Origin: Marinobacterium rhizophilum DSM 18822
GTDB lineage: Bacteria > Pseudomonadota > Gammaproteobacteria > Pseudomonadales > Balneatricaceae
Direction of reading: 5' to 3'
Assembly (NCBI RefSeq): GCF_000378045.1
Contig: NZ_KB899090.1
Location: forward strand, 62,001 to 126,000
Length of the DNA: 64,000 nt
Position 1 is the stretch's first letter. Each line of letters begins with the position of its first letter. The position numbers were made by a program, and so were the translations under genes. The notes under the pieces were generated by a model. The model was not told the origin of the DNA, searched no databases, and saw nothing but the letters and a program-made list of their open reading frames with translations. Shown one piece after another: positions 34,215 to 36,446 of this stretch.

Positions 34215-36446
34215 TCAACTTGGTTCGACCGGTACTACGGTATCAATATCAATATGAGCATCAAACTGTTTAAGAATGTCCTGTACCAGCGGGTCCTGCT
34301 CAATCGCCTCTACCGCTCGGGCCTGGCGAAGCTCCCGCTGTCGCTGGGCAAACTGGTGCGGCGTCTCCCGACGCTGGTCCGCACACTCGAATTCTACCTC
34401 AAGCGCCACCGCAAAATAATCACACAGCGCCTTGCCGATGCGCTCGCGCTGAACTTCATTCAACAACGCCTGCTGCTGCGCCGTGTAGTGAAACCGCAGC
34501 CTTTGCCCCTGCACCACCTCCAGCGAGAGATTGACGGCCAGACTCTCGGTCATGCCACCCAACCCCAGCCCCGCGCACACCGCAACCCAGCCCTCAGGCT
34601 GCAGCGCATCCAGCGCCAGCGGAGTCTCAGTTCGCTGCGCGCCGACCGAAGGATTGGCCAGCACCCGGGAAGGCTGCGTGACCGGTGAAGCCGGGGCCCG
34701 CACCATATCAGGCTTCGATTGCAAGGCCGCAGACGCCTGCACTGGCGCGTGAGCTGGCACCGGTTCAACAGCATGCCCAACCCTGGCCACACCCGCCTGC
34801 TCTGCCCGGCCCGGTACAGAGCCGGCACTCGAGCGGGGTTCAGGCCCGGGTTTAGCACCAGGCCGCACCTCGGGCTCAGACTTTTTTAACGCGGGCGCCC
34901 CACCGAAAGACCGCTCGTCGCCATCCCGGTCGTAGCCAACCGGAATATCGGACTCGTCATATTCAGGCGGCATATCCTGCATCGCCCCCGCGGGCATCGC
35001 GGGCTCGTCACGCGCCGCCTTCACGGCATTGGTTTGCACCGGCGCCGCCATGACCGGTTCTATTTCCGGCGCCTTCTCCGCGGCTTTATCCAGCCCCTTG
35101 CCCAGCGCTCCCTCCCGCTTAGGGGGTGACTCCTGGCGCACAGGATCAATTACTGGTGCTGCCTGCAGGCCAGGCTCCCTAACGGGTACGGCAGGCACAG
35201 CAACATCTGCAACGGAGGCAGCCGTATTATCCGGCATCCGGCTGTCTGCAGTCCGAGCGTTCGGCTGCTGATCATCGGGCTTCGCGGCGTGCTCCGCCGG
35301 GCGAGCAACCGGGGCAACCGATGCGCCCGCAGCTGCCACAGGACTGCCGCCGGGCGGCGCGCCTGCCGGGCGGAAGGCCAGCATGCGCAACAACACCATT
35401 TCCAGCCCTTCACGGGCATCCGGCACATAGGGCAAATCACGCCGCCCGAGCAGCGCGATCTGATAGTAAAGCTGTACATCCTCGGCCGTCAGCCGCCCGG
35501 CCAGCGCCAGGATTTGTTCCCGGTCACCCAGACTGTTATCAGCCGCATCGGGCAGTACCTGGGCAATGGCGACGCGGTGCAACAGGCTGATCATGTCTCC
35601 CAGCACGCTGGCATAATCGGGCGAGAACTGCGCCAGATCGGCCACCGCCGCCAGCAATGCTTTCGCATCCCGGGCTGCCAGGCACTCGACCAGCCGACTC
35701 ACCAGCAGCTGATCTATGCTCCCCAGCATGGTCTGGACGTCCAGCGTCGTAATCTGGCCAGCCCCAAAGGCGATGGCCTGATCCGTCAGGCTCATGCCAT
35801 CACGCATGGAACCATCGGCGGAGCGTGCCAGCAACCAGAGCGCCGCCTCCTCAAAGGGAATATGCTCCTCCCCGAGGACGAAACGCAGGTGCTCCACGAT
35901 CCGCTCGGGAATCAGGTTCTTGAGGTTGAACTGCAGACAGCGCGACAGAATGGTAACGGGCAGCTTCTGCGGATCGGTCGTCGCCAGCAGAAACTTCACA
36001 TGGGGCGGCGGCTCTTCCAGCGTCTTGAGCAAGGCGTTAAACGAGTGGGTCGACAGCATGTGCACCTCATCGATGAGGTACACCTTGTAACGCCCATGGG
36101 TCGGCGCATACTGCACGTTTTCCAGCAGTTCGCGAGTGTCTTCCACCTTGGTGCGCGACGCCGCATCGACTTCGATCAGGTCGACGAAGCGCCCTTCGGC
36201 AATCTCCCGACAGGCACTGCACTGGCCGCACGGATCCGACGATACGCCAACCTCGCAGTTCAGCGACTTGGCGAACAGACGTGCGATTGACGTCTTGCCC
36301 ACACCCCGCGTGCCGGTAAAAAGGTAGGCATGATGCAGGCGATCATCGTCCAGCGCATTAACCAGCGCCTTCAGCACATGCTCCTGACCCACCATTTCCT
36401 GAAAACGCTTCGGACGCCATTTGCGCGCCAGCACCTGATAGCTCAT
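34215..36446 (-). CDS. dnaX: DNA polymerase III subunits tau/gamma
   Basis: Clamp-loader ATPase, 743 residues as tau. The AAA+ domain shows [19 protein letters not shown] near residue 40, the zinc cluster [16 protein letters not shown] near 64-79, [10 protein letters not shown] and TILSRCLQF. Residues about 370-620 are Pro/Ala-rich linker and the rest is the tau C-terminal domain that binds the polymerase. At codons 520-522 there is an A AAA AAG heptamer; a -1 slip gives one Val and TGA at 34878-34876, so a gamma form of about 523 residues is predicted. It is longer than E. coli DnaX (643) mainly in the linker. The ybaB-recR pair follows. Confidence 0.96.
34881..34887 (-). promoter_or_regulatory. 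Programmed -1 frameshift heptamer in dnaX
   Basis: On the minus strand A AAA AAG is in the right phase with the tau frame (TTA AAA AAG TCT). After a -1 slip the next codons are GTC TGA, ending the gamma product. A purine-rich GGTGGGG about 10-16 bases upstream could act as the stimulatory Shine-Dalgarno-like element, and GCCCG/CGGGC complementarity downstream could form the hairpin. The heptamer is the same as in E. coli dnaX. Confidence 0.75.

Follow-up and report, generated by a model that had tools for sequence, protein, structure and literature searches.

The dnaX gene of Marinobacterium rhizophilum DSM 18822 raises the question of whether, in addition to the tau subunit of DNA polymerase III, it directs the synthesis of a shorter gamma subunit by a programmed -1 ribosomal frameshift like that of E. 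coli dnaX. The gene lies at positions 34215-36446, on the minus strand, of the window, the whole 64-kb stretch of DNA that was analyzed, and its open reading frame and translation give a tau of 743 aa in the zero frame. The product is named DNA polymerase III gamma/tau according to NCBIfam NF005942 (812.9 bits) and TIGR02397 (429 bits), and in Pfam residues 234-357 correspond to domain III and residues 612-737 to tau domain V, which binds alpha. Downstream of dnaX, on the same strand, are ybaB/ebfC, followed by recR and rnd. Marinobacterium profundum gives a close hit, at 71% in its best segment.

The minus-strand letters 34889-34876 read TTA AAA AAG TCT GA, in the wider context TTA AAA AAG TCT GAG. 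They contain the slippery heptamer A AAA AAG (34881-34887, minus strand, CDS offset 1559), which is in phase and located between domain III and tau domain V. It is the sole run of six As and the sole in-phase X XXY YYZ pattern (Y = A or T) within dnaX. The -1 frame shows the codons GTC TGA (34876-34881, minus strand), whose first base is the last base of the heptamer. The part of dnaX common to tau and the predicted gamma (34881-36446, minus strand) encodes 522 residues, and together with the Val it gives a predicted gamma of 523 aa that, according to Pfam, would retain the clamp-loader domains I-III and lack tau domain V. The initial annotation had described an in-phase heptamer within 34876-34889, a -1 frame ending one codon later with GTC TGA and a gamma of about 523 residues, all of which were borne out by reading and translating the letters; its coordinates for the sequence context are exact, although the context that it quoted, TTA AAA AAG TCT TGAG, holds one surplus T. 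AAAAAAG occurs 10 times across the 64-kb window, against 6.0 expected, so that the bare motif is not rare and the case is built on position, phase and conservation.

Judged from the sequence, the best reading of this site, and very probably the right one, is that a programmed -1 ribosomal frameshift like that of E. coli dnaX yields gamma. A ribosome on TTA AAA AAG would pause under the influence of two elements, an internal Shine-Dalgarno (SD)-like pairing located 10 nt upstream and, downstream, a stem-loop that starts after about 7-9 nt, and its two lysyl-tRNAs would move one base backward to pair with AAA AAA. GTC would then be read and translation would terminate at TGA, so that a gamma of 523 aa, with the ATPase, lid and oligomerization domains, would be made alongside the full-length tau of 743 aa, and the alpha-binding domain V would be present only in tau. 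In the E. coli kind of frameshift the two products would be expected at about 1:1. The occurrence of the shift, its efficiency and the entry of gamma into the clamp loader are our inference.

The E. coli dnaX gene, run identically, shows the heptamer, a gamma of 431 residues, an AGGGAG element ten bases upstream and a core stem from +6/+7. Both genes share the in-phase A AAA AAG, the -1 stop past one codon, a gamma without tau domain V, an SD-like element that ends 10 nt upstream of the heptamer and a predicted G+C-rich stem soon downstream. The energies of the SD-like pairing and of the downstream fold are also similar: -7.4 and -19.7 kcal/mol in E. coli, and -6.5 and -18.4 kcal/mol in the window. 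The core stem begins at +6/+7 in E. coli, the first pair of the window fold is at +9, and the profile of the relatives, at +7, is near the E. coli geometry. They differ in the sequences of the stimulators, in the serine codon (TCT instead of AGT) and in the length of gamma (523 instead of 431 aa). The DnaX element of Rfam (RF00382) shares with the window the gene, the heptamer and the type of stem, but its covariance model found no match at the gathering score in the whole window, in six congeners, in four other family members or in two loci of family f22, nor at E values up to 10 in window positions 34600-35100. As positive control, the model finds the E. coli element at 96.8 bits (gathering score 35), while other Rfam matches in 34600-35100 are far under their gathering scores. 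Having the E. coli anatomy and leaving RF00382 unmatched, the element falls outside that curated family.

In the window, the SD-like element is GGTGGGG (34898-34904, minus strand), whose duplex with the 16S tail has -6.5 kcal/mol in relation to an own-gene mean of -3.8 kcal/mol (rank 0.145 in the window dnaX). The predicted stem-loop stimulator (34834-34872, minus strand) has a core 7-bp hairpin at about 34864-34843 and a 48-nt fold of -18.4 kcal/mol, with its first pair at +9. The 83 nt downstream of the heptamer fold with -40.3 kcal/mol (z = -2.2), and 6 of 200 shuffles were equally good; the 45-nt downstream window has a rank of 0.12 among windows of the same dnaX. The best 83-nt fold is a longer alternative that differs from the 48-nt stem-loop, and the exact downstream structure modeled at this dnaX is uncertain. 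In the folding check proposed in the initial annotation, this sequence by itself is only moderately above chance. The window's own SD-like and stem scores are only moderate, which, with the alternative fold, counts against the frameshift reading.

To evaluate conservation, 116 genomes of the family, from 16 genera, were searched; DNA of 110 was analyzed and dnaX was readable in 109, the survey being made without G055, G088, G090, G092, G093 and G100, and G023 having no readable open reading frame. An in-phase A AAA AAG is present in 87 of the 109 dnaX genes read. All of them belong to 12 genera, in which the heptamer is found in 87 of 90 genes; of the other three, one lies on a cut contig (G035), one carries an A7 variant (G057) and one has its frame broken upstream (G076). 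In this last gene (L146), the zero frame stops at 470 codons, past a six-base repeat, and the heptamer lies downstream in another frame; the break is probably an indel or an assembly error. The heptamer was found in none of the 19 dnaX genes read from genera g3, g4, g13 and g16, one of which (G101) is broken in frame. In genus g16, L038, L177 and L181 lack an in-phase A AAA AAG but have runs of eight or more As with a -1 stop one codon later, which may reflect a change of mechanism.

A -1 stop exactly one codon after the heptamer is present in 72 of the 87 genes, in contrast to 1922 of 25592 background positions (7.5%), and is rarest in genera g11 (1/7) and g5 (4/8). The codon preceding AAA AAG encodes 11 different amino acids among the 87 genes, which were picked by a heptamer that includes the last A of that codon. 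In a count that was not selected on that base, A precedes the Lys-Lys codons AAA AAG of the linker in 88 of 94 cases, and precedes a lone AAA in 88 of 301. These counts come from related sequences and are not independent draws; the pattern, however, repeats genus by genus. In close relatives the linker diverges, while the in-phase heptamer is retained, in most cases with the -1 stop next to it. The outcome in these relatives is the opposite of the one that the initial annotation had named as refuting, loss of the heptamer with the amino acids kept.

Both stimulators are enriched in these relatives. Pairing of positions -18 to -6 with the 16S tail has an 87-gene mean of -7.1 kcal/mol versus -3.0 kcal/mol in the same genes and exceeds the own-gene controls in 12 of 12 genera, with a peak of purine-rich motifs at -14/-13 upstream of the heptamer. 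The initial annotation had likened GGTGGGG to the E. coli stimulator, and this likeness stands: the spacing is the same as that of AGGGAG, and the signal, of rank 0.145 in the window alone, is strong across the 12 genera. Downstream folding has a mean of -15.9 kcal/mol in relation to -10.4 kcal/mol in the control and is lower in 12 of 12 genera; the chance that a position opens a pair is under the control from +1 to +6 and jumps at +7. The claim of a stem is based on fold energies and pairing profiles. In relation to a stem start 5-8 nt downstream, the range given in part of the text of PMC4066793, the profile of the 12 genera rises at +7 and the first pair of the window is at +9 (rank 0.12). 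The downstream G+C pairing described in the initial annotation is enriched across the heptamer-bearing genera, but in the window alone it is only moderately above chance.

The window genome differs from E. coli in its lysine tRNAs. It contains two tRNA-Lys(UUU) and one tRNA-Lys(CUU), so that a single tRNA-Lys(UUU) for both AAA and AAG, as in E. coli, is not the case here; decoding by a single tRNA-Lys characterizes E. coli as a host and does not belong to the frameshift signal itself. The tRNA-Lys(CUU) gene is located beside a tRNA-Lys(UUU) gene at L298:1560-1635 (G000:C5:229407-229482). Among the seven genomes of the genus it is present in five, namely the window genome and four congeners, with identity over 76 of 76 bases, and it was not found in the other two congeners, G002 and G006. 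In four of the genomes it adjoins UUU copies 93% identical to it, and in the fifth (G005) it is near a contig end; local duplication is the simplest origin that we infer. Outside the genus, pattern search and ARAGORN found tRNA-Lys(CUU) in one genome among the 116 of the family, G063, which is a metagenome-assembled genome with 88% completeness and 6% contamination, and in the 145 genomes of the order only in G145 besides the window genome. Across the class, a CUU pattern is widespread, being present in 214 of 377 genomes. An early CUU pattern missed a gene that ARAGORN found, and absence of a pattern is therefore weak evidence; furthermore, with one tRNA-Lys pattern, 19 of 116 genomes, including all eight of genus g11, gave no tRNA-Lys match of any kind. 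ARAGORN confirmed 27 of 30 pattern loci, and a failure, G274, sits in the CUU-positive class set. This set comprises 80 of the 377 genomes, one per family, picked by CUU status, of which 75 were counted: G263, G266, G270 and G305 were dropped for having no usable dnaX match and G297 for having no readable open reading frame, and G262, G286, G312 and G316 are incomplete among those counted. A heptamer accompanied by a near -1 stop but by no A8/T8 run is present in one of 39 CUU-negative and one of 36 CUU-positive genomes, CUU status being assigned by pattern only.

A tRNA-Lys(CUU) is expected to reduce the slip at AAG, which counts against the frameshift reading. In E. coli the slipperiness of the heptamer is attributed to a sole tRNA-Lys that pairs weakly with AAG (a passage of PMC5009743). 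The site could be a relic or a weak site, an inherited signal that, since the clade's gain of tRNA-Lys(CUU), has tight decoding of AAG and gives little gamma. The presence of the tRNA in five of the seven genomes of the genus would fit this explanation, as would the suggestion, made for Thermus in the same source as far as its text was available, that two lysine tRNAs are a possible reason for the use of polymerase slippage. All five CUU-bearing species, however, retain the heptamer, its phase and the TGA, while 141 of the 145 gap-free codons of the linker vary among these species; of the four invariant codons, two are AAA AAG. Against it are also the insertion sequence (IS) elements with A_AAG-type motifs recorded in 46 of 83 species having both lysine tRNAs (in part of the text of PMC4066793), by which the coexistence of the heptamer and tRNA-Lys(CUU) is not unprecedented; unlike the case of the IS elements, here it concerns a chromosomal replication gene. 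We consider the relic explanation unlikely. A natural test of the idea that A_AAA_AAG owes its efficiency to one tRNA-Lys reading both codons is offered by the five sister species, in which the site is kept alongside a CUU reader. Tentatively, and with more doubt than conviction, we suggest that in the Marinobacterium-like clade an efficient shift tolerates, or is tuned by, two lysyl-tRNAs competing at the slip codon, the gamma:tau ratio being set by the tRNA balance. No paper on frameshifting with a tRNALys of CUU anticodon was found among the open-licence papers searched.

The run might instead be kept for its amino acids, as a Lys-Lys patch of the linker and with no frameshift, given that Lys-Lys, often with Glu two codons on, is conserved at the site. 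The Glu codon gives the GA of the -1 TGA, and thus its conservation fits a frameshift too; moreover, most other neighboring residues vary, the third-base A before the run persists while its amino acid varies, the order AAA then AAG is fixed and the -1 stop lies directly behind. Amino-acid conservation alone was rejected on the fixed A, the codon order and the near stop, and is in our opinion very improbable. Hardly any weight is left for transcriptional slippage on the A run yielding gamma messages, as in Thermus thermophilus. This bacterium makes the same two products and has two lysine tRNAs, as here, but uses nine As and RNA polymerase slippage, according to portions of PMC5009743 and PMC3711429, whereas the window shows A6G; no run of at least nine As is present in the window dnaX, whose only run of at least six is formed by the six As of the heptamer. 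Runs of A9-A10 in the dnaX linker of Oceanospirillum and some other families of the order would favor slippage, but the 12 genera keep A6G, the -1 stop and the ribosomal stimulators and not a longer run. Polymerase slippage on A6 was accordingly rejected, A6G being short and the ribosomal stimulators being kept in the 12 genera.

The programmed ribosomal frameshift predicted at this dnaX is a known mechanism in a new lineage, and the site is a further case of a known signal. Supported by the comparison over 12 genera, it brings a marine lineage into the range of a textbook frameshift. No paper on Marinobacterium and dnaX was found among the open-licence papers searched.

In the rest of the order, 85 dnaX genes from 37 families were read, a partial choice from 139 genomes of other families: 36 show the heptamer and a -1 stop within ten codons, 10 show runs of eight or more As, some of these also holding an in-phase heptamer, 37 show neither, and two, of family f22, are reversed. 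Together with the 19 of 109 genes in four genera of the family, these 37 of 85 make absence of the signal frequent among lineages, which counts against the frameshift reading. No heptamer was found in the named Halomonas and Salinicola dnaX loci. Runs of 9-10 As are present in the dnaX genes at L066, L077 and L080, and at L237, L238, L254, L263, L268, L275, L288 and L289, from Oceanospirillum and several families of the order; stops are found 0-12 codons past these runs in both shifted frames, and the genes are candidates for transcriptional slippage. The dnaX matches at L195/L088, recorded as Aliamphritea spongicola, fall in three different frames, suggesting either sequencing errors or a gene that is broken.

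In the two f22 genes (L259 and L260, genomes G136 and G168), the zero frame ends one codon past A AAA AAG, at 373 and 377 aa, whereas translation in the -1 frame would continue for 254 and 294 codons, up to a terminal Pfam tau domain V; the SD-like and stem elements are present. Gamma appears to be encoded in the zero frame and tau in the -1 frame, so that tau would need the shift. Two-ORF dnaX genes are known from Chlorobium and other bacteria, in which, according to the accessible portions of PMC3711429 and PMC5009743, a -1 shift joins two dnaX frames and tau, not gamma, requires it; among the genes read here this organization was recognized only in the two f22 genomes. The reversed genes lend indirect support to the view that ribosomes are shifted by the cassette within this order, and suggest that one order uses the same cassette for the short product in some families and for the long product in another.
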